A DNA stretch of 64,000 bases from Acidovorax sp. NCPPB 3576 (GTDB lineage: Bacteria > Pseudomonadota > Gammaproteobacteria > Burkholderiales > Burkholderiaceae_C): assembly GCF_028473605.1 (NCBI RefSeq), contig NZ_CP097267.1, positions 4,270,501 through 4,334,500 on the forward strand. The letters are read 5' to 3'. Of the stretch, positions 1 to 9,707 are shown piece by piece. How positions within the stretch are numbered: position 1 is the stretch's first letter; the number at the start of each line of letters is the position of its first letter. The position numbers and the translations under genes were made by a program. The notes under the pieces were generated by a model. The model was not told the origin of the DNA and searched no databases. It saw only the letters and a list, made by a program, of their open reading frames with translations.

Positions 1-13
1 GCGTAGGACGCGG

Positions 14-1543
14 TCAGCCCAGCGGCACCGGCACGAAGATCTTGTCGCCGTCGCGCTGGATCAGCAGGGCCACCGATTTGCCCGCCTTGGCCATCGCCTC
101 GCGCACCTGCTCCACGCCCCGGGCCGGCGTGCCGTTGATCGCCAGCAGCACGTCGCCGGGCTGCACGCCGGCCAGGGCGGCGGGGCCACGGGCATCCTCC
201 ACCAGCAGGCCGCCGTCCACGCCGGCATCGCGGCGTTCCTGCGGCTGCAAAGGCCGCAGCGCCAGGCCCAGGCGGCCCTTGCCGGCGGACTTTTCCGAAC
301 TGGCGATCTTGGTGGCCTTCTCGCTCGCATCGCCCAGCGTGGCGGTGAACTCCTCGGGCTTGCCATGGCGCCACACCTCCAGGCGCGCCTGCGTGCCGGG
401 CGCCGCCTGGCCCACGATGGCCGGCAGATCGCCCGAAGCCACGATGCGCTGACCGTTCACGCTGCGGATCACGTCGCCCGATTTCAGGCCCGCCTTGTCG
501 GCCGGGCCGCCCTCTTCCACGCCGGCCACCAGCGCCCCTTCGGGCTTGTCGAGCTGGAACGAATCGGCAAAGGCCTGGTTCACCTCCTGCACCGACACGC
601 CCAGGCGCGCATGGCTGGCCTTGCCCGTCGCCACGATCTGGTCCTTGACCTTGGCCGCCACCTCGATCGGGATGGAGAACGACACGCCCTGGTAGCCGCC
701 CGAGCGGCTGTAGATCTGCGAATTGATGCCCACCACCTCGCCGCGCGCATTGAACAGCGGGCCGCCCGAGTTGCCGGGGTTCACCGCCACGTCGGTCTGG
801 ATGAAGGGCACGTAGCTGTCGTCCGGCAGCGAGCGCCCCTTGGCGCTCACCACGCCGGCCGTCACGCTGTTTTCGAAGCCGAAGGGCGAACCGATGGCCA
901 GCACCCACTCGCCCACCGCGAGGTTGCGCGTGCTGCCCAGCTGCACCACGGGCAGGTCCTTCGCGTCGATCTTGAGCACCGCGATGTCGGTCTTGGGGTC
1001 GGAGCCCAGCACCTTGGCCCGGAACTCGCGCCGGTCGGTCAGCTTTACCGTGACCATGTTGGCGCCCTTCACCACGTGGGCGTTGGTGAGGATCACGCCA
1101 TCGGCGCTCACGATGAAGCCCGAGCCCTCGCCCCGCGTGGGCACCTCGCGCTGGCGGCCGGGGGCCTGCAGGCCGGGCGGCACCATGCCGAACCGGCGGA
1201 AGAATTCGAACATCGGATCGTTCGGGTCGATGCCCTGCGCGCCGCTGCGCGGGTGCGCCGCGGTCTCGTCATCGTCGTCGTCCGAATCGGTCATGGACGT
1301 CTTGGTGGTGCCGCTCACGCTGATGTTCACCACCGCCGGGCCGTTGCGCGCGGTGATCTGCGCGAAGTCCGGCGCCGTCACGCCGCCCGTGTAGGGCATG
1401 GCCGCTGGCTGCATCGCAGCGGGCGGCATGGCGGCGCGGCTGGAATGCATGTTGGTCACCAGGCCCGCGCCGGTGGCGCCGATGGCACCGGCGGTCAGCA
1501 GGGCCAGGGTCAGGCGGCGGGGGGTCGAGAGAACGGAGTTCAT
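14..1543 (-). CDS. Do-family (DegP/DegQ-like) periplasmic serine endoprotease
   Basis: A trypsin-like protease that should degrade or refold damaged envelope proteins in the periplasm. The 509-residue product starts with a basic, hydrophobic signal-like segment and an Ala/Met/Pro-rich stretch. The catalytic triad is visible: His156 in LTNAHVV, Asp186 in KTDIAVL and Ser259 in NPGNSGGPL. Two PDZ domains follow (roughly residues 300-400 and 415-509), as usual for the family. I place the start at 1543 because AAAGGA lies just upstream; an in-frame ATG nine codons earlier lacks such a site. A run of Asp residues (about 88-92) lies between the signal and protease regions. Its promoter region has been separated from the next gene by the insertion sequence beginning at 1609. 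DegP, DegQ and MucD cannot be told apart from sequence alone. Confidence 0.93.
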   Translation of the reverse strand: MNSVLSTPRRLTLALLTAGAIGATGAGLVTNMHSSRAAMPPAAMQPAAMPYTGGVTAPDFAQITARNGPAVVNISVSGTTKTSMTDSDDDDDETAAHPRSGAQGIDPNDPMFEFFRRFGMVPPGLQAPGRQREVPTRGEGSGFIVSADGVILTNAHVVKGANMVTVKLTDRREFRAKVLGSDPKTDIAVLKIDAKDLPVVQLGSTRNLAVGEWVLAIGSPFGFENSVTAGVVSAKGRSLPDDSYVPFIQTDVAVNPGNSGGPLFNARGEVVGINSQIYSRSGGYQGVSFSIPIEVAAKVKDQIVATGKASHARLGVSVQEVNQAFADSFQLDKPEGALVAGVEEGGPADKAGLKSGDVIRSVNGQRIVASGDLPAIVGQAAPGTQARLEVWRHGKPEEFTATLGDASEKATKIASSEKSAGKGRLGLALRPLQPQERRDAGVDGGLLVEDARGPAALAGVQPGDVLLAINGTPARGVEQVREAMAKAGKSVALLIQRDGDKIFVPVPLG

Positions 1544-1608
1544 GGCAGTCCTTTCGTTGGGTCGTTGCATGGGGGCAGTTTGGGCAACGAGACTTAGGTG
1601 TGGCTTAG

Positions 1609-3015
1609 CAGGCTGAAGAAATACCCCCGCTCAGCCAGCCCGGCAACCCAACCCCGGTAAGCTCACCAGTCCCTCCCATCTCCATTGCCTGACCCCATGC
1701 GCGGCGCCGACACCTTCACCGAGAGCCTGTTTTCCGTTCGCAAGCTCGACGACTTTGTCCCAGCCTCGCATCCCCTGCGTCCCATCCGCAAGATGGTCAA
1801 CGCAGCCTTGGCCAAGATGGATGCCCTGTTCTCGCGCATGTACGAAGCAGACATCAAAGGCGGGCGCCCCAGCATCGCCCCCGAGAAGCTGCTGCGCGCC
1901 ATGCTGCTGCAAGTGCTGTACAGCGTGCGCTCGGAGCGCCAGTTGATGGAGCAGGTGCAGTACAACCTCTTGTTTCGCTGGTTCATAGGCCTGTCCATGG
2001 ACGACGAGGTCTGGGTACCCAGCGTGTTCACCAAGAATCGTGAGCGCCTGATCGAGCACGACGCCGTGATCGAGTTCTTCAACGAAGTGCTCAAGATCGC
2101 CGACAAGAAGCACTGGCTCTCGGGCGAGCACTTCAGTGTGGACGGCACGCTCATCCAGGCCTGGGCGGGCCACAAGAGCTTCGCGCGCAAAGGCGACGAT
2201 GACGCGAGCGGTGATGGTCGTGATGGCAATAGTGACAACACAGATGATGGCCATGGTGCAGATGCCAAAGCCAACAGCGATGGCGGCAACTTCAAGGGCC
2301 AGCGGCGCAGCAACGACACCCACGAATCCACAACCGATGCCGATGCCCGGCTGTACCGCAAAGGCAATACCGCCAGCGAACTGCGCTACATGGGGCACAC
2401 CCTGAGCGACAACCGCCACGGGCTGGTGGCCAATGCGGTAGTCACGCTGGCCGATGGCTACGCAGAACGGGAAGCAGCCAAGGCCATGATCAACGACGCC
2501 AGGCAGGCGCAGGCCGATCCCATGCGAACCATCACGCTGGGGGCAGACAAAGGCTATGACGCATGCGAATTCATTGAAGCGTGCCAGGCCATGAACGTCA
2601 CGCCCCACGTGGCCCAGAACAAGTCAGGCAGAAACTCGGCCGTGCCCGAAGCCATTGCGCAAAGCGAAGGCTACGCGGTATCGCAACAAAAGAGAAAGCT
2701 CATCGAGCAAGGCTTTGGCTGGGCCAAGACCGTGGGCGGCATGAGGCAGGTGATGGTGCGAGGAATCAAGCGCGTGGACCAGATGTTCGTGCTGACGATG
2801 GCGGGCTACAACCTGGTGCGCATGCGCACGCTGGGGCAATGGGGACAGGTGCGTGCGCAGGCAGTGCATTGAGGGAAAACGGGTGCAAAGGTGGCCCCAA
2901 CATGCGCAAGAACGCCTGATTGGCCGCTCGGATCCCGGGATGTGAAAGCCAGCGAGCCCGCCGACGACCGCAGGCCAGGACTGGCTTGGAATCTGGGGAG
3001 TATTTCTTCAGCCTG
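1609..3015 (+). mobile_element. IS5-family insertion sequence (copy 1), complete with target duplication
   Basis: The element is 1407 bp. Its ends are inverted repeats, perfect over the first 16 bp (CAGGCTGAAGAAATAC read inward from each end). It is flanked on both sides by TTAG (1605-1608 and 3016-3019), a 4-bp target duplication typical of this class. One transposase gene fills it. It inserted between the protease gene and the cas3 remnant. Intact ends, duplication and open frame suggest a fairly recent insertion. Confidence 0.93.
1685..2872 (+). CDS. IS5-family DDE transposase
   Basis: This is the transposase of the insertion sequence at 1609-3015, about 395 residues and full length. The N-terminal part (about residues 15-110, through GGRPSIAPEKLLRAMLLQ) is the helical domain found before DDE_Tnp_1 catalytic domains. 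The presumed catalytic acids lie in FSVDGTL, LGADKGYDA and the C-terminal LIEQGFGWAK. A charged, Gly/Asn/Asp-rich insert of about 50 residues (about 175-225) separates the first acid from the rest. The start is uncertain: the frame opens at a TTG (1685) with an ATG at 1697, and neither has a clear ribosome binding site. Confidence 0.92.
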   Translation: MPDPMRGADTFTESLFSVRKLDDFVPASHPLRPIRKMVNAALAKMDALFSRMYEADIKGGRPSIAPEKLLRAMLLQVLYSVRSERQLMEQVQYNLLFRWFIGLSMDDEVWVPSVFTKNRERLIEHDAVIEFFNEVLKIADKKHWLSGEHFSVDGTLIQAWAGHKSFARKGDDDASGDGRDGNSDNTDDGHGADAKANSDGGNFKGQRRSNDTHESTTDADARLYRKGNTASELRYMGHTLSDNRHGLVANAVVTLADGYAEREAAKAMINDARQAQADPMRTITLGADKGYDACEFIEACQAMNVTPHVAQNKSGRNSAVPEAIAQSEGYAVSQQKRKLIEQGFGWAKTVGGMRQVMVRGIKRVDQMFVLTMAGYNLVRMRTLGQWGQVRAQAVH

Positions 3016-3019
3016 TTAG

Positions 3020-3199
3020 GGGCACCGGAGGGCTGGCGATGCAGGCCAGGTTGCGGCACAGTTCAGTCACTGGACGTAACAAAAGGCGCGCCAAAGGGAA
3101 ACCCCGCAGGCGGCACGCCACGCCCAGCCGCCACAATGCCCCCGCCGACAGCTCATCCATAAAGGACTGCGGCCACCGACCCAAAGGGAGGAAAAACCA
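3020..3199 (+). promoter_or_regulatory. Former upstream region of cas3, now abutting an IS end
   Basis: There is no gene in this 180-bp stretch. It ends in a strong ribosome binding site (GGGAGG at 3186-3191) eight bases before the TTG that opens the cas3 remnant. Before the insertion it would have formed, with the bases up to 1608, a divergent promoter region between the protease gene and cas3. No clear -35/-10 pair was recognised. Confidence 0.4.
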
Positions 3200-3376
3200 T
3201 TGAACGACGAAGAACAGCGCACTGGCACGCCGCGCTTTTACGCGCACTCCACGGACAGCGCCGACCAGAGCGATTGGCAGCCACTGCCGGACCATCTGCA
3301 CGCCGTGGGGCGAGGGGCCGGGGAGTTTGCCGCTGTTTTTGGCGGCCAGGCGCTGGCCTGCCGGCGCGTAGGTTGA
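3200..3376 (+). pseudogene. cas3: Truncated 5' end of type I-C cas3 (HD-domain start)
   Basis: Only 58 codons remain. They start at a TTG preceded by GGGAGG and end at a TGA created inside a CRISPR repeat. The peptide carries RFYAHSTDSADQSDWQPL, then PDHLHAVGRGAGEFAAVF, which matches the way type I-C Cas3 proteins begin: the YAHS histidine, Trp-x-x-L, then the HL-x-x-V helix leading to the HD nuclease motif. Everything downstream (the rest of the HD domain, the helicase, and cas5/8/7/4/1/2) is missing. The reading frame runs without a gap into a degenerate repeat ending GTTGAAAC. I infer one deletion from codon ~53 into the array. The assignment rests on motif recognition; a translated search would settle it. 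Confidence 0.72.
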
Positions 3377-3640
3377 AACGTTTCCGAAATCCCGCAACCA
3401 ACTGACACGCTGCCGTCGCGCCCCGTGCGGGCGCGTGGGTTGAAACAAGGGGATGGTGACAGCGCTTGGATCGACCTGGGAGTCGCGCCCCGTGCAGGCG
3501 TGGGTTGAAACAAGGCGGCCGGCTGGGCCGTGCTGGGAAAGACCAGGTCGCGCCACGCGCGGGCGCTTCGGTTGCAACTTAAGCGCCTCGGCAGTGCTGT
3601 TGCCTTCTTTGGGTTGCGTCCCGTGCGAGCGCGGGTTAAG
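3348..3640 (+). CRISPR. Degenerate type I-C CRISPR array, about five repeats
   Basis: Repeats of 30-32 nt end at 3379, 3446, 3511, 3578 and about 3640. The best copy (3415-3446) begins GTCGCGCCCCGTGC and ends GGGTTGAAAC, the familiar type I-C form. The start-to-start period is 67, 67, 65 and 66 nt. The four spacers are 35, 35, 35 and 34 nt (3380-3414, 3447-3481, 3512-3546, 3579-3612). The first repeat is damaged at its 5' half, where it joins the cas3 fragment. The third lacks 2 nt, and the fourth and fifth carry several substitutions. A very weak sixth copy may start at 3680, exactly on the period. No leader and no other cas gene is present, so the array cannot grow and is probably inert. 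Confidence 0.85.
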
Positions 3641-3744
3641 AATTCAGCAGACCGGCGAGCGATTTGATGGAAGCTCTTCGTTGCGCCTTTGCCAACGTTG
3701 GCGTTTACCAATAGCGTTCAAAGAAACGATGACAGCGAGCAATC
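3641..3744. other. Decayed tail of the CRISPR array
   Basis: No gene is seen. A GTTGCGCC match at 3680 falls 67 nt after the fifth repeat and may be the eroded start of a sixth repeat; the rest does not match. The stretch ends at the AATC target site of the second insertion sequence. Its original continuation resumes at 5034. Confidence 0.3.
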
Positions 3745-3748
3745 AATC

Positions 3749-5029
3749 GGGAACCTCTCACAACTCGCGCTGGTAGGCGCCCCCAGCCCAGCCGCGCAGA
3801 TTTCAGCGCCTTGAATGCGCAATAACGCCTGCGCAGTGGCCTGGAGCCTTTCACTTGAGGCGCTGCGGCCCCTTCAACTCAGGCTTTCGCCGTTTGCAGG
3901 CGCACCTGTGCCTTGGTGGTAGCCGGTTTGAAGAACGCATCCACGCCTCGCTCCAGGAAGGACGCCAGGCGCTTCATGTTGTAGCAGGCGGCCATCATCG
4001 TCATCCCCACCGTGGCGCGCGCCTGCCCGATCGTGCGCACGAACTTGCCCCCCAGGTGGCGGATGCCGGCGAACACGTGTTCGACCTTGGCCCGCTGGCT
4101 CGCAATGCGCTGGTTGCGCCGCTTCTGGCACTCGCTCAAGGGCTGGCCCGTCCGCGCCCTGCGCTGCATCGCGTCCACAAAGCCCAGCACTTTCAGCATC
4201 TGGCGCCTTTGGCGGCTCGGGTAGGCTTTGTCCGCATGCACGGCCCGCCCGGTGTTGTGCAGGTCCAGCACCTCCTCGAAGTGGTGCCCGTCGTGCTCGC
4301 TGGCCGTGCCCGTAGCGATGCGGCGGATGAAGCCGTGCTTGAGGTCCACGCTCACGCTGAGCTTGTAGCCGAAGTAACTCTTGCCGTGCTTCTTCGTGTG
4401 CGTGGCATCCACATCCTTTTGCCTGCGCCGCACATCGCTCCACTCAGGCGTTCTGCCCTCGGCCAGTGCCTCGCGTTCCGGCCTGTCCAGGCGCTGGCGG
4501 GGCGCGGGCACCAGCGTCGCATCAATGGCCTGCCCGCCCCGGGCGATGTAGCCGTGGCGGTGCAACTGCATATCCACCCCCTGGAACAGCACCGTGGCCC
4601 CCTCCACACCCAGGCGCTCGCCGAAGCGCCAGATGGTGTTGCGGTCCGGCACGTTCATCGCATCCTGCAGCAGGCAAAACCGCTGGTAGCTCGCCCGATC
4701 CAGCAACTGGTATTCCATCTGCTCATCGGACAGGTTGTACAGCCGCTTCAAGACCAGGATGCGCACCATCACCTCGGTGGGATAGGCGGGCCGACCACCC
4801 TTGCGGCCATCGCCGCGCTCGATCAAGGCATCCACCAGCCGCGCCAGTTCTGCAAAGTCGATGTGCCGCGCGATCACCTGCAGCGGATCGCCCACCTCAT
4901 CTCTCTTGTGCTGGCGCGAGGCCTCGGCGAACAGGTCGAACTTCAGCGCGCTGCGGGGTGTGATCATGGCAAGGGGCGGGTCAGGCTTGTCGGGTCAGAA
5001 AGAGAGTGGATGGGTTTTGAGAGGTTCCC
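3749..5029 (-). mobile_element. IS5-family insertion sequence (copy 2, different from the first)
   Basis: The element is 1281 bp with ends GGGAACCTCTCA and its complement, flanked by AATC on both sides (3745-3748 and 5030-5033). Its one gene is on the minus strand. The terminal repeats and transposase differ from those of the element at 1609-3015, so two separate insertions hit the same dying locus. Confidence 0.92.
3879..4967 (-). CDS. IS5-family DDE transposase
   Basis: The product has 362 residues and is full length. The N-terminal helical domain includes GGRPAYPTEVMVRILVLKRL (about residues 57-76). The catalytic acids are expected in AIDATLVPAPR, VHADKAYPSR and KVEHVFAG. The protein ends close to the inner edge of the terminal repeat. 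It is related to the other transposase here only at family level; the linkers and ends differ. Confidence 0.93.
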   Translation of the reverse strand: MITPRSALKFDLFAEASRQHKRDEVGDPLQVIARHIDFAELARLVDALIERGDGRKGGRPAYPTEVMVRILVLKRLYNLSDEQMEYQLLDRASYQRFCLLQDAMNVPDRNTIWRFGERLGVEGATVLFQGVDMQLHRHGYIARGGQAIDATLVPAPRQRLDRPEREALAEGRTPEWSDVRRRQKDVDATHTKKHGKSYFGYKLSVSVDLKHGFIRRIATGTASEHDGHHFEEVLDLHNTGRAVHADKAYPSRQRRQMLKVLGFVDAMQRRARTGQPLSECQKRRNQRIASQRAKVEHVFAGIRHLGGKFVRTIGQARATVGMTMMAACYNMKRLASFLERGVDAFFKPATTKAQVRLQTAKA

Positions 5030-5033
5030 AATC

Positions 5034-5124
5034 GAGTCACATCACATAAAGGCGCCCAGGATTCATCCCAAAAGAGGCATCTCTCTAGAAAGAACACATA
5101 CCACCAAGCCCCCTCAGTCCGCAC
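5034..5124. other. Short intergenic remainder beyond the second IS
   Basis: Ninety bases with no recognisable gene or repeat lie between the insertion sequence and the end of the permease gene. They are probably the far flank of the lost CRISPR locus. Confidence 0.3.
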
Positions 5125-6852
5125 TCACCCGCGACTGCGCAACGTCCTGCTCAGCAAAACCACCGGCACCAACCCCACCGCCACCAGAGCCAGCGACGGC
5201 AATGCGGCTTCGCCCAGCCGCTCGTCGCGCGCCAGCTGGTAGGCGACCACGGCCAGGGTGTCGCTGTTGAAGGGCCGCAGCACCATGGTGGCGGGCAGTT
5301 CCTTCATCACGTCCACGAACACCAGCAGCGCCGCGGCAGCCGTGGAGCGCTTGAGCAGGGGCCAGTGCACGCGGGCCAGCAGGCCGGCGCCGCCGGCGCC
5401 CAGCATGCGGGCAGAGTCGTCCAGGCTGGCGGGAATGCGCGCGTAGCCGCTTTGCATGGACTGCAGGGCCACGGCGCAAAACCGCACGAGGTAGGCCCAC
5501 ACGATGCCGACCGCCGTGGCGGTGATGATCGACGGCAGGCCCCACTGGGGCGCGGCGGCCTGCAGCCAGCCGACGGGCAGCAGCAGGCCCACGACGATCA
5601 CGGCGCCGGGCACGGCATACCCCAGGCTGGCCAGTTGCGCCACGCCGCGGGTGAGCGCGCCGGCCCGCCGCCGCACGGCGAAGGCCAGCACCAGGGCGAT
5701 GGCCACGGCCAGCACGGCGGTGATGCTGCCCAGGCGCACGCTGTTGCCGGCCCATTCCAGAAAACGCGACCAGGGCAGCACCGACCAGTCGGCCGCCAGG
5801 GGCCGCAGCATGAAAACCACCGGGGCCACGAAGCCGAAGACCACCGGCAGCACGCACACCGCCCAGGCGGCGGCGCAGCGCAGCCCCTGCAGCCGCTGCG
5901 GCTGGGCCTCGGCGGAGCCCGCGCGGCCCGCCCCGCCCGCAGCAAAGCGCATGCGCCGCTGCGCACGCTGCTCCAGTTGCAGCAGCAGCATGACGAGCAC
6001 GAGCAGGATGGTGGCCAACTGCGCCGCGGCCAGGCGGTTGTCCATCGACAGCCATGCCTTGTAGATGCCGGTGGTGAAGGTCTGGATGCCGAAGTAGCTC
6101 ACCACGCCGAAGTCGGCCAGCGTTTCCATGAGGACCAGCGCCACGCCGGCCGCGACCGCGGGGCGCGCCAGCGGCAGCGCGACCGTGCGCACGCGCCGCG
6201 CCAGCGGTGCCCCCAGCAGGCGGGCGGCCTCCATGAGATGGGCGGCGCGCTCGCCCAGCGCCGTGCGGGCCAGCAGGTACACGTAGGGGTAGAGCGAGAA
6301 GATGAACACCCACACCGCGCCGCCCAGGCTGCGCACCTCGGGCAGCAGCCGGCCTTGCAGGCCATAGGTTTCGCGCAGCCACACCTGCAGCGGGCCGCTG
6401 AACTGCAGAAAGTCGGTGTAGGCATAGGCGGTCACGTAGGCCGGCATGGCCAGGGGCAGCAGCAGCAGCCATTCCAGCGTGCGGCGGCCGCGAAAGTCGA
6501 ACAGCGTGACCGCGGCAGCCGTCGCCGTGCCCACGACCGCCGCGCCGATGGCCACGGCCAGGCCCAGCCACACCGTGGTGGCGAAGTAGCCGGGCAGCAC
6601 GGTGGCGGCCATTTCGCGGAGGATGGCACCGGCCTCGGCGCCACCGGCGCTGCCCGGCAGCCACGACGCGAGCACGGCCAGTACCGGCAAGGTCAGCGCG
6701 GCGGCCAGCAGCAGCAGGGGGACGGATCGCAGGGCAGAAAGAAGGCGTGGCAAGGGCGGGCCCTGAAGGGAAGGGTCGGGAGAATCGGACGAGGCATCTC
6801 GGTCGAAGACGGCCTTGATCGGGCGCTGGACGGCAGGCCGGCAGGGCCACAC
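5125..6852 (-). CDS. Ferric-iron-type ABC transporter permease (FbpB/SfuB-like)
   Basis: An inner-membrane permease made of two fused binding-protein-dependent transport domains, with about twelve hydrophobic segments, as in Fe(III) and thiamine importers. It would pass substrate from a periplasmic binding protein into the cytoplasm, energised by the ATPase encoded divergently at 6901. Permease EAA-type loops are visible in ARLLGAPLARRVRTVALPLA and SARMLGAGGAGLLARVHWPL. The start is uncertain. A GTG at 6852 keeps it clear of the divergent gene; a TTG at 6753 would put the start just before the first membrane segment. Neither has a good ribosome binding site. No binding-protein gene is in the window, so it must be elsewhere if the importer works. 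Confidence 0.85.
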   Translation of the reverse strand: MWPCRPAVQRPIKAVFDRDASSDSPDPSLQGPPLPRLLSALRSVPLLLLAAALTLPVLAVLASWLPGSAGGAEAGAILREMAATVLPGYFATTVWLGLAVAIGAAVVGTATAAAVTLFDFRGRRTLEWLLLLPLAMPAYVTAYAYTDFLQFSGPLQVWLRETYGLQGRLLPEVRSLGGAVWVFIFSLYPYVYLLARTALGERAAHLMEAARLLGAPLARRVRTVALPLARPAVAAGVALVLMETLADFGVVSYFGIQTFTTGIYKAWLSMDNRLAAAQLATILLVLVMLLLQLEQRAQRRMRFAAGGAGRAGSAEAQPQRLQGLRCAAAWAVCVLPVVFGFVAPVVFMLRPLAADWSVLPWSRFLEWAGNSVRLGSITAVLAVAIALVLAFAVRRRAGALTRGVAQLASLGYAVPGAVIVVGLLLPVGWLQAAAPQWGLPSIITATAVGIVWAYLVRFCAVALQSMQSGYARIPASLDDSARMLGAGGAGLLARVHWPLLKRSTAAAALLVFVDVMKELPATMVLRPFNSDTLAVVAYQLARDERLGEAALPSLALVAVGLVPVVLLSRTLRSRG

Positions 6853-6859
6853 GGATGCA

Positions 6860-6878
6860 AATGCGAATTCTACGCATT
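6860..6878. promoter_or_regulatory. Fur-like palindrome between divergent transporter genes
   Basis: The 19-bp inverted repeat AATGCG-N7-CGCATT, preceded by CA, resembles betaproteobacterial Fur boxes with AATGcgAAT half-sites. It lies 22-40 bases before the ATPase start and close to the permease start, so one bound repressor could close both promoters. Iron regulation is inferred from the motif and the transporter type. Confidence 0.45.
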
Positions 6879-6900
6879 GGCGCCTTCTAGAATCGCGGCC

Positions 6901-7968
6901 ATGTTCCTTGAAGTCTCCCAACTGGAAGTGCGCTATGCCGGCCGCGCGCAAGCCGCCGTGCGCGGCGTCACCCTGGGCCTCGCAGCGGGCGAGATCGGCG
7001 TGCTCATCGGCCCGTCCGGCTGTGGCAAGACCACGTTGCTGCGCGCCGTGGCCGGGCTGGAGCCCGTGACGGCCGGCGAGATCCGGCTGAGCGGCGCCGT
7101 GGTAAGCAGCGCTTCAGGCCGCAACGTGCCGCCGGAGCAGCGGCGCATCGGCATGGTGTTCCAGGACTACGCCCTCTTCCCGCACCTTTCCGTGGGGCGC
7201 AACGTGGCCTTCGGCATCCACCGCCTGCCGCGCGCCGAACAGGCGGCGCGCGTGGACGAGGTGCTGCGGCTCGTGGGCCTGGAAGGCAGCGCCGCACGCT
7301 TTCCGCACGAGTTGTCCGGCGGGCAGCAGCAGCGCGTGGCGCTGGCCCGCGCGCTGGCGCCACGGCCCCAGCTGATGCTGCTGGACGAGCCGTTTTCCAA
7401 CCTGGATGTGGACCTGCGCGAGCGCCTGGCGCACGAGGTGCGGGGCATACTGAAAGCGGCGGGCGCCACGGCGCTGTTCGTCACGCACGACCAGCTGGAA
7501 GCCTTTGCCATCGGCGACCGCATCGGCGTGATGGAAAGCGGCCAGTTGCATCAGTGGGACGATGCCTATGCGCTCTACCACCGCCCGGCCACGCGGTTCG
7601 TGGCCGACTTCATCGGCCACGGGGTGTTCGCGCCGGCCACGCTGGAGCAACGCGGGGACAACGTGGTGGCCCGCACGCCCCTCGGTGACCTGACCGATGT
7701 GGCCGAGTGCCCCCTGCCGTCCAGCTACCCCGCAGGGGAATGCGACGTGCTGCTGCGGGCCGACGATGTGGTGCACGACGACGCCTCGCCGGTGCAGGCG
7801 CGCATCGTTCGCAAGTCGTTCAGGGGCTCGGAGTTTTTGTACACGCTGCAATTGCGGGACGGCCTGACGGTGATGGCCCATGTGCCGAGCCACCACGACC
7901 ACGCGGTGGGCGAGTGGATCGGCATTCGACCGCAGGTGGACCATGTGGTGGCGTTTCCACGGGCCTGA
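6901..7968 (+). CDS. Ferric-iron-type ABC transporter ATP-binding protein (FbpC-like)
   Basis: The cytoplasmic ATPase partner of the divergent permease, 355 residues. Visible motifs are Walker A GPSGCGKTTL (about residue 37), the Q-loop in FQDYALFPHL, the signature LSGGQQQRVALARAL, Walker B LMLLDEPFSNLD and the switch histidine in FVTHDQ. The remaining ~120 residues form the TOBE-type regulatory domain usual in FbpC/PotA-like subunits. The start is the ATG at 6901, just after the Fur-like palindrome. The substrate is probably ferric iron, judged from the permease type and the operator; thiamine or spermidine cannot be ruled out. Confidence 0.88.
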   Translation: MFLEVSQLEVRYAGRAQAAVRGVTLGLAAGEIGVLIGPSGCGKTTLLRAVAGLEPVTAGEIRLSGAVVSSASGRNVPPEQRRIGMVFQDYALFPHLSVGRNVAFGIHRLPRAEQAARVDEVLRLVGLEGSAARFPHELSGGQQQRVALARALAPRPQLMLLDEPFSNLDVDLRERLAHEVRGILKAAGATALFVTHDQLEAFAIGDRIGVMESGQLHQWDDAYALYHRPATRFVADFIGHGVFAPATLEQRGDNVVARTPLGDLTDVAECPLPSSYPAGECDVLLRADDVVHDDASPVQARIVRKSFRGSEFLYTLQLRDGLTVMAHVPSHHDHAVGEWIGIRPQVDHVVAFPRA

Positions 7969-8024
7969 ACCCGTCAGCCGAAAGCGCAGCGATGCCAGAC
8001 CAGCAGCCCCCCCCCCCGGGCCTG

Positions 8025-8939
8025 CTACGACAGGAAGAAGGCAATGAAGACGGGGGCCAGGATGGTGAGGATGAAACCGCTTACCAGGGCCAACGGGACC
8101 GCATCCGGATGGCAGGCCTGCTTGACGATCGGTAGCGTGGAATCGAGCGCCGTCGCCCCCGCGCTGCCGATTCCGATCGCGGGCTGGTGCCGGCCGATGG
8201 CGTAAAGCGCGACGATGGCTATCAGCTCCCTGAACAAGTCGGTCATCAGCGCCATGGTCCCGTAGGTCTGCCCGAGGTGGTGCCCGACCATGACGCTCGA
8301 CAACGTGAACCAGCCAAAGCCACTGGACAGCGCCAACGAGATTTTCATCGTCTCGCCCGTGGCCCACGAGGCAGCCACCGCGCCCACGAACGAGCCGATC
8401 ACCACCAGCACCGGTACGGACAGCACGGCCCATGAAAACCAGTTGGAGCTGAGCTTGACGTACGCCAGATCGATGCCCACCAACACGATCAATGCCAGCA
8501 GGATGGCCGAGCTCGATGGCAGCCAGAGGGCACCGGCCAAGTAGGCCTGGTTGACGAAAAAGAGCGCACTGCCAAGCGCCACCATGGACAGGGCAATGCA
8601 GCACTCCTTCAAAGGCGGCCAGATCGTGCGGAAACCCAATGGGCCGGCTTGGGTTTCAGTGGCTCCACCGCTGCGAATGCCGGCGGCAAAGATCAGGCCG
8701 CAAGGCACCAAGGTCGTCAGCAAGGCGAAGACCACGGCGGTTTTGACCACTTGGCCGACCGACTGCGCGGAAAGAATGACCTCGCCGAACTCCACGCCAA
8801 TCAGGAAAAGCAGCAGCCAGACGAGGGGCAATATCAAGCGGATCAAGCCGGAACCGAATCGGTGCGGGATTATCTTTCCCGCAATGAATCCGCCCGCCAG
8901 TGCCAGCACAATGGGGAGCAACGAATAAAAAACGCCCAT
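8025..8939 (-). CDS. LysO-family amino acid exporter
   Basis: A 304-residue integral membrane protein with about eight hydrophobic segments and few charges. It belongs to the family of the E. coli lysine exporter LysO (YbjE, DUF340), recognised from the N-terminal layout (GGFIAGKIIPHRFGSGLIR, then VWLLLFLIGVEFG) and the late SGFGWFTLSSVMVGHHLG region. It should move an amino acid or analogue out of the cell. Its gene starts 3 bp after the upstream dioxygenase gene, so the two are surely co-transcribed, and an Lrp/AsnC regulator lies divergently beyond. The true cargo may be the hydroxylated product rather than lysine. A run of ten C at 8007-8016 lies just beyond its end. Confidence 0.82.
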   Translation of the reverse strand: MGVFYSLLPIVLALAGGFIAGKIIPHRFGSGLIRLILPLVWLLLFLIGVEFGEVILSAQSVGQVVKTAVVFALLTTLVPCGLIFAAGIRSGGATETQAGPLGFRTIWPPLKECCIALSMVALGSALFFVNQAYLAGALWLPSSSAILLALIVLVGIDLAYVKLSSNWFSWAVLSVPVLVVIGSFVGAVAASWATGETMKISLALSSGFGWFTLSSVMVGHHLGQTYGTMALMTDLFRELIAIVALYAIGRHQPAIGIGSAGATALDSTLPIVKQACHPDAVPLALVSGFILTILAPVFIAFFLS

Positions 8940-8942
8940 GGT

Positions 8943-9707
8943 TTATATGCTCTGCCTCATTCTGGAAAAGTCGATAAGTATAACGCAGCGCTCTCCGTCC
9001 TCCGCCTCGTTTTCTTTTCTGCGAATGGGTGTCACATAATGTGAAACGCGCGGATCGTGAACCACGAAGCTCTCCAGAAACTGCGAGAGTTCGAATTCCG
9101 CGATCACCTGCTCTTGGGGCACCTCGTGCAGCCCCAGGCCGCGCGCCTGCACCGTACCGATGTAATTGGTGCCCCCCACCGTGCTTTTCGTCCTGCGTAT
9201 CAGGTGGGCGAAGGTGAACGGTTCGCCATCCTGATGGAAGCAGTCCGGCGAACTGATGCCCAGGTCCGACTCGGAGCCTGACCGGAGTTTGACGAAATGC
9301 ACGCCGAAATAGATGGGCGACCGGCGGTCGGTTTCAGACCAGAAGGTGTGCGAGAAATCCTTCTTCACCAAGTCGCACAGGAAATCCGTGGCCTTCGCCT
9401 GGTCGCTCAACGCATGAAAGTAGCGGATATCGGGATGCTCCGGGTTGTTGCCTCCCTGGTCGTAGCCGGATAGCTGCGCACCCTGGTCGTCCCGCACCGT
9501 AGGAATCCAGTGAATATCCGCCTGCGCATCCCACGGAAGAATGATTCCGTTGCCATACCGCCGAAACCGCTTGACCTGAGCGGGCGCGTAGGGGTCATGC
9601 TCCAGGCGATCGAACTCCTGGTGGAGCGTTTTCAACTCCCCGGGATCGCATTCGATTTCGGGGACGAATTGGCAGAAGCCGTTTTGTTTGAGCTGGGTTT
9701 GAATCAT
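8943..9707 (-). CDS. 2-oxoglutarate/Fe(II) dioxygenase, amino-acid-hydroxylase-like
   Basis: A 254-residue cytoplasmic enzyme of the 2OG-Fe dioxygenase family that includes the bacterial L-isoleucine and related free-amino-acid hydroxylases. The iron-binding His-x-Asp is in DCFHQDGEPFTFAHLI (about residues 150-165), the distal His is in VVHDPRVSHYVTPI, and a later Arg in GERCVILIDF could hold 2-oxoglutarate. In this family the enzyme uses O2 and 2-oxoglutarate to hydroxylate a side chain and releases succinate and CO2. The gene is first in a two-gene unit with the LysO-type exporter. The start is the ATG at 9707; no strong ribosome binding site precedes it. The substrate is not known; a small aliphatic or basic amino acid is an inference from family and neighbours. 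Confidence 0.75.
   Translation of the reverse strand: MIQTQLKQNGFCQFVPEIECDPGELKTLHQEFDRLEHDPYAPAQVKRFRRYGNGIILPWDAQADIHWIPTVRDDQGAQLSGYDQGGNNPEHPDIRYFHALSDQAKATDFLCDLVKKDFSHTFWSETDRRSPIYFGVHFVKLRSGSESDLGISSPDCFHQDGEPFTFAHLIRRTKSTVGGTNYIGTVQARGLGLHEVPQEQVIAEFELSQFLESFVVHDPRVSHYVTPIRRKENEAEDGERCVILIDFSRMRQSI

Follow-up and report, generated by a model that had tools for sequence, protein, structure and literature searches.

How did a short open reading frame with a strong ribosome binding site come to end inside a degenerate CRISPR repeat? The locus that raises this question lies in the genome of Acidovorax sp. NCPPB 3576 (designated G000), in the window, which is the whole stretch of 64,000 nt that was analysed. 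It is very probably what remains of a dead type I-C CRISPR-Cas locus, a scar left by a deletion that joined cas3 to a repeat of the array. The features of the locus are as follows, where G011 is the nearest relative in the genus and coordinates are those of the window.

14..1570, − strand: trypsin-like PDZ protease (HtrA/Deg type), left flank; Pfam Trypsin_2 and PDZ
1609..3015, + strand: IS element with DDE transposase (DUF772, DDE_Tnp_1), between protease and cas3 stub; TTAG target duplication
3016..3199, + strand: retained upstream region of cas3; aligns to G011 jointly with the cas3 start
3200..3358, + strand: cas3 codons 1–53, type I-C remnant; DNA collinear with G011
3359..3379, + strand: CRISPR repeat 1, 3' 21 nt only
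3380..3414, + strand: spacer 1; phage-like DNA in own genome
3415..3446, + strand: CRISPR repeat 2, 32 nt, reference copy, identical to the G011 repeats
3447..3481, + strand: spacer 2; no target found
3482..3511, + strand: CRISPR repeat 3, 30 nt, 2 nt shorter
3512..3546, + strand: spacer 3; Acidovorax phage Alfacinha1
3547..3578, + strand: CRISPR repeat 4, 27/32 to the reference copy
3579..3612, + strand: spacer 4; tail tape-measure gene in own genome
3613..3644, + strand: CRISPR repeat 5, the most degenerate, 22/32 to the reference copy
3749..5029, − strand: second IS element (DDE transposase), on the downstream side of the array remnant; AATC target duplication
5125..6951, − strand: ABC transporter permease, right flank ("iron" is the label of the sequence-only reading)

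The open reading frame occupies 3200–3376 on the + strand. It starts with TTG, has 58 codons, and is preceded by the ribosome binding site GGGAGG at 3186–3191, inside the retained upstream region. The start region of the stub, GGGAGGAAAAACCATTG, is present in the cas3 gene of G011 with no differences. Residues 1–53 show 85% identity to residues 1–53 of the G011 Cas3 (E 1.3e-27), whose frame is open over 803 aa. The second best match, the own genome aside, is the Cas3 of G012 with 73% identity. The genus sample consisted of 17 genomes including the own genome, and the stub was matched in 14 of them at E ≤ 0.1; besides G011 and G012, ten further genomes of the genus match at E 4e-9 or better. 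The Cas3 match ends at residue 53 in all 12 of these genomes. The Cas3c profile of PADLOC matches the stub weakly (E 0.0013). Searches of Pfam, NCBIfam and PDB with the short stub returned nothing relevant, and a protein database search with the 58-aa frame returned this frame itself as the sole match. The Cas3 of subtype I-C is thus represented in the window through its first 53 residues only, and the HD catalytic region is missing from the 53 retained codons.

Codons 54–58 and the TGA at 3374–3376 consist of repeat 1 sequence, read in frame from cas3; 19 of the 21 nt at 3359–3379 equal repeat positions 12–32. The sequence-only reading had described this frame, its strong ribosome binding site, its break near cas3 codon ~53 and its stop within a degenerate repeat, and had taken the peptide for the beginning of a Cas3 of type I-C, to be checked against profiles. 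All of this agrees with the searches.

The partial repeat 1 is followed by four decaying repeats and four spacers. Their starts at 3415, 3482, 3547 and 3613 give a spacing of 67, 65 and 66 nt. Such a gradient of repeat decay is what the trailer end of an array would show. The repeats have the properties of type I-C: a length of about 32 nt, a predicted hairpin, a GTTGAAAC-type end, and spacers of 34–35 nt. The predicted hairpin is not more stable than those of shuffled sequences (z −1.04). Rfam listed no CRISPR repeat family for window 2800–5200. A small palindrome, GAAACGTTTC, at 3375–3384 straddles the junction between repeat 1 and spacer 1, at the point from which spacer 1 starts to match its target.

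The counterpart of the locus in G011 (L024) has the order cas3-cas5-cas8c-cas7-cas4-cas1-cas2-array and is flanked by the same two neighbours, the protease and the ABC-transporter genes. PADLOC names these genes Cas3c, Cas5c, Cas8c, Cas7c, Cas4c, Cas1c and Cas2c, where the Cas4c call is a piece of cas4 past its stop. The synteny rests on DNA alignment: the protease side is 97% identical and the transporter side, window 5109–8921, 92%, including an ABC ATPase at 6901–7968 beside the permease. Window 3016–3358 aligns with L024 4399–4742 at 87.5%. The stretch missing from the window corresponds approximately to L024 4743–12537, about 7.8 kb in G011 coordinates with the leader included. In window 1–9000, none of cas5, cas8c, cas7, cas4, cas1 and cas2 was found, and nothing matches the DNA that separates cas2 from the array in G011, so that six other cas genes and the leader of a functional system are absent from this stretch. 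Cas1 was not found in the own genome in a genome-wide search. The comparison of the two loci shows a loss estimated at 7.8 kb, and we infer that it took place through a single event.

The type, the orientation, the extent ("seven or so" kilobases) and the loss of the leader had all been proposed from the letters alone, together with a search for an intact locus between the protease and transporter genes of related strains. G011 carries the whole cas set in full order at that site, and each of these proposals holds in the comparison with it. The G011 locus has an in-frame TAG in cas4 (L024 10300–10460) and a very short array, with only two perfect repeats left plus degenerate ones, and is otherwise a complete I-C locus. 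This nearest relative may be losing adaptation.

An ancestor carried cas3-cas5-cas8c-cas7-cas4-cas1-cas2-leader-array between the protease and transporter genes, as in G011. A deletion fused codon 53 of cas3 to mid-repeat sequence close to the trailer, the older end of the array, and the intervening DNA, leader included, was lost. The remnant can neither guide interference nor acquire spacers. The most likely mechanism would be end joining, with few or no shared bases, of the GC-rich cas3 to a repeat. The array presents the same 32-mer many times over and would be a large target for such joins, which would account for the recurrence of the scar in other genomes.

The scar is flanked on both sides by two different IS elements, on which the sequence-only reading was silent. 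The element at 1609–3015 has inverted ends with TTAG on both sides and is missing from the G011 alignment. An IS-mediated deletion was considered and rejected, since the IS ends are away from the junction. Stepwise decay, in which several deletions and IS events occurred and the present junction is the last of them, is an unlikely course of events. It would account for two IS elements with intact target duplications around the scar, for the decay already seen in G011 (the cas4 stop and the very short array), and for G004, which retains cas3 and 43 codons of cas5 with no array; however, the junction is not touched by IS ends, and cas3 goes straight into the repeat.

The state of the locus varies in the genus. 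All seven I-C cas queries were matched in 9 of the 17 genomes (G002, G003, G005, G006, G007, G010, G011, G013 and G016). In G012, cas3-cas5-cas8-cas7 runs up to the edge of a contig, and cas1 lies on a different contig. In G004 (L133), the complete cas3 and the cas5 fragment are followed by unrelated sequence; within the genus, the locus has here been partly deleted in another way. A divergent Cas3 (34%) occurs in G001, with I-C-like cas4-cas1-cas2 next to the protease. Fossil loci were found in the own genome and in G008. Cas1 was matched in none of G009, G014 and G015, and cas3 only weakly, in G009 (E 0.05); the protease was not found in G014. The distance of cas3 from the protease is 0.5 kb or less in G005, G010, G011, G012, G013 and G016. 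None of the genus genomes without cas3 kept cas1, apart from the divergent system of G001. Cas3 and Cas10 proteins have been reported from P. citrulli strains; the wording "type I-C" is absent from the available part of that study (PMC12961662).

The divergence of the stub bears on the age of the deletion. With the Nei-Gojobori method over the 53 codons, dN is 0.087 and dS 0.49 against G011, while dN is 0.144 and dS 0.64 between G011 and G012. Most of the divergence of the stub thus accrued under constraint, and for this reason the deletion is probably young compared with the split from G011. The flanks, at 97% and 92% identity, are more alike than the cas3 side at 87.5%, which raises the possibility that the locus was exchanged as well.

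Targets were found for three of the four spacers. Spacer 3 matches the gene for the terminase endonuclease subunit of Acidovorax phage Alfacinha1 at 33/35 with TTC directly 5', and is also matched in two further Acidovorax phages. Spacer 4 matches the tape-measure gene in the own genome at 30/34, with TTC 5' and mismatches at positions 3, 5, 6 and 15. Spacer 1 has two matches in the own genome, both lacking a TTC PAM; the better one (32/35) is about 0.4 kb from a phage-kind HNH endonuclease gene, and the second (26/35) has two proteins beside it, neither with a PHROGs match. The phage collection gave no match to spacers 1 and 4. Spacers 3 and 4, two of the three with a known target, therefore have protospacers preceded by a 5' TTC, as in type I-C; those of spacer 1 lack it. 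The canonical PAM of type I-C is TTC, and for Acidovorax TTN is given (PMC8482600).

Since spacers 1 and 4 (2/4) match the own genome, autoimmunity to resident prophages could have selected the loss, and a Pectobacterium study describes the toxicity of self-targeting and its relief through mutations in cas (PMC3630108). Yet spacer 4 is mismatched at PAM-proximal positions (3, 5, 6 and 15) and the spacer 1 targets lack TTC, so neither spacer looks like an effective self-target now. Autoimmunity is a rather improbable cause and is not claimed here.

Similar fusions were sought elsewhere. Residues 1–250 of the G011 Cas3 were searched against 399 genomes of the family, 54 of which matched at E ≤ 1e-6. 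The match lies in an open frame shorter than 650 aa in seven genomes (G000, G008, G144, G302, G396, G210 and G283); G391, with a 666-aa frame, was left out of the inspected set. In four of the seven (G000, G008, G144 and G302), the DNA shows cas3 running in frame into CRISPR repeats, and the first repeat provides the TGA in each case. The break codons are 53, 240, about 246 and, in G011 numbering, 560, respectively. The fusion thus recurs in three more Comamonadaceae genomes, at other codons. No repeat was found in G396 and G210 by the tests used, and the stub of G283 is upstream of a divergent cas operon. In G008 (L143 5315–6139), cas3 up to codon 240, with the HD-domain region included, runs into a degenerate repeat with TGA, and this fusion is located at a genomic site other than the protease. 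It corresponds to the 247-aa database protein P0001, which has 9 predicted member sequences spread over 8 contigs.

Wider samples, which overlap, gave matches in 39 of 399 genomes of the order, 35 of 369 of the class and 30 of 398 of the phylum, with further short or interrupted cas3 frames. Eleven such frames, examined with a test for a pair of repeat ends, yielded no new fusion, at least three of them being cut by contig ends; frames ending at contig ends in G661, G481 and G809 were left out of the 11. Genus searches around G302 and G144 revealed no further fusion. The survey was made from the cas3 side only, and the frequency of these fusions is thus not comparable with that of scars keeping other cas genes.

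The protein-database searches covered 168 distinct proteins among the best 120 of 863 and the best 120 of 357 matches. Judged by protein sequence, at least seven of the truncated Cas3 proteins listed there besides P0001 end in a clear translation of the I-C repeat (P0007, P0020, P0086, P0124, P0132, P0157 and P0165), four of them with two repeats, and repeat-translated ends are possible in P0004 and P0057. Tails were searched with a loose pattern and read by eye; P0119, falsely flagged by this pattern, was rejected. The fusions are taken as separate events because the reported pairwise identities of the fused proteins are at most 67.1%.

Stubs of another kind were also observed. In L202, L203, L211 and L180 (compare L129, in G001), I-C-like cas3 stubs are just upstream of a divergent cas operon, which has a Cas3 about 31–36% identical to that of G011, cas7, cas4 and mostly cas1-cas2 (L203 ends before cas1). 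They look like an old cas3 start left over when the effector module was replaced. In L204 10039–11111 (G636), the array beside a short cas3 stub is of the TTGAAAC type and lies upstream, not downstream.

Retention of fused short Cas3 pieces for a function, such as that of a nuclease or regulator fragment, might explain why the G008 fusion is predicted in several sequences, why P0086, P0132 and P0157 switch at the same Cas3 motif though they are only 57–61% identical, and why dN is below dS over the 53 codons. It is nevertheless very unlikely: the HD catalytic region is missing from the window stub, the break points differ widely, the window frame has no other database member, and its dN/dS is like that between intact genes, as expected from recent loss. 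That the frame is merely Cas3-like by chance, a thought prompted by the weak scores with curated profiles, has practically no probability and is already refuted by the strength of the same-genus Cas3 match (E 1.3e-27) and the collinear flanks on both sides.

The junctions bear on how a deletion from cas3 into a repeat could have formed. In G000, G144 and G302, cas3 meets the repeat at positions about 11–13, leaving 20–21 nt of the repeat, and GCC or GCCC precedes the join. The junction of G008 is about 22 nt ahead of the repeat, within spacer sequence. Joins are therefore at mid-repeat in three of the four DNA-verified fusions; for three joins out of four to fall inside a 7-nt interval of the 67-nt unit, the binomial probability is 0.004, with the interval chosen post hoc and n = 4. 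The join position is the loop of the predicted repeat hairpin, itself not more stable than shuffles. In a scan for homology between cas3 and the repeat (G011 cas3 for G000 and G233 cas3 for G302), the junction sites were not the best matches, with at most 6/11 near the junction and up to 9 elsewhere. Strong homology of cas3 and repeat as the cause of the joins was thus not found in these two cases. In P0086, P0132 and P0157, the switch from Cas3 to repeat occurs at the same IPF motif, where the repeat reads APF or similar, and this suggests a few shared bases at the break. The self-targeted deletions described in PMC3630108 were joined at microhomology of 1–9 nt.

The repeats might even be built-in deletion ends: with one GC-rich hairpin sequence offered dozens of times in an array, short matches between cas3 and the 5' half of the repeat would repeatedly seed joins at the repeat centre, and I-C loci would tend to excise themselves. 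This idea is tentative and invites more doubt than confidence. If it is true, the cas3-repeat scar would be a characteristic exit route, recording the subtype, the orientation and the last targets of the lost immunity.

The window resembles the I-C loci of the genus, those of G011 and the eight others with all seven cas genes, in the cas3 start, the ribosome binding site, the repeat sequence, the orientation and, for G011, the site. Unlike them, it has lost the whole stretch between cas3 codon 53 and the central part of a repeat. It also resembles orphan or degenerate CRISPR arrays, with few decaying repeats and no cas genes nearby, but its fused cas3 piece reveals the subtype, the orientation and the break point. 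To our knowledge, most orphan arrays leave no record of these three.

Removal of CRISPR-Cas by large deletions is described in studies on Staphylococcus (PMC3784566) and Pectobacterium (PMC3630108), the latter with 7-nt homology at some repair sites. The deletion ends given there are IS copies, long repeats or sites around a targeted island, whereas both ends of the window scar are inside one locus, in its cas3 and its array. Deletion as a route of CRISPR loss is already known, and the new part is the recurring scar of cas3 running into a repeat, of which no description was found in searches of the open-licence literature. The loss of CRISPR-Cas has so far mostly been deduced from absence. With a recognisable scar, a cas3 frame ending in a repeat, losses become countable, can be assigned to a type and can be mapped onto trees; such counts would test whether arrays themselves promote the loss of their loci. 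The scar is also a source of misannotation, as the G008 fusion stands in protein databases as a 247-aa protein.

No cas genes were found within the surrounding 10 kb examined of L144 4631–4862 (near 4,628.7 kb of the own genome), where a second orphan array, decayed and of the same repeat type, was observed.
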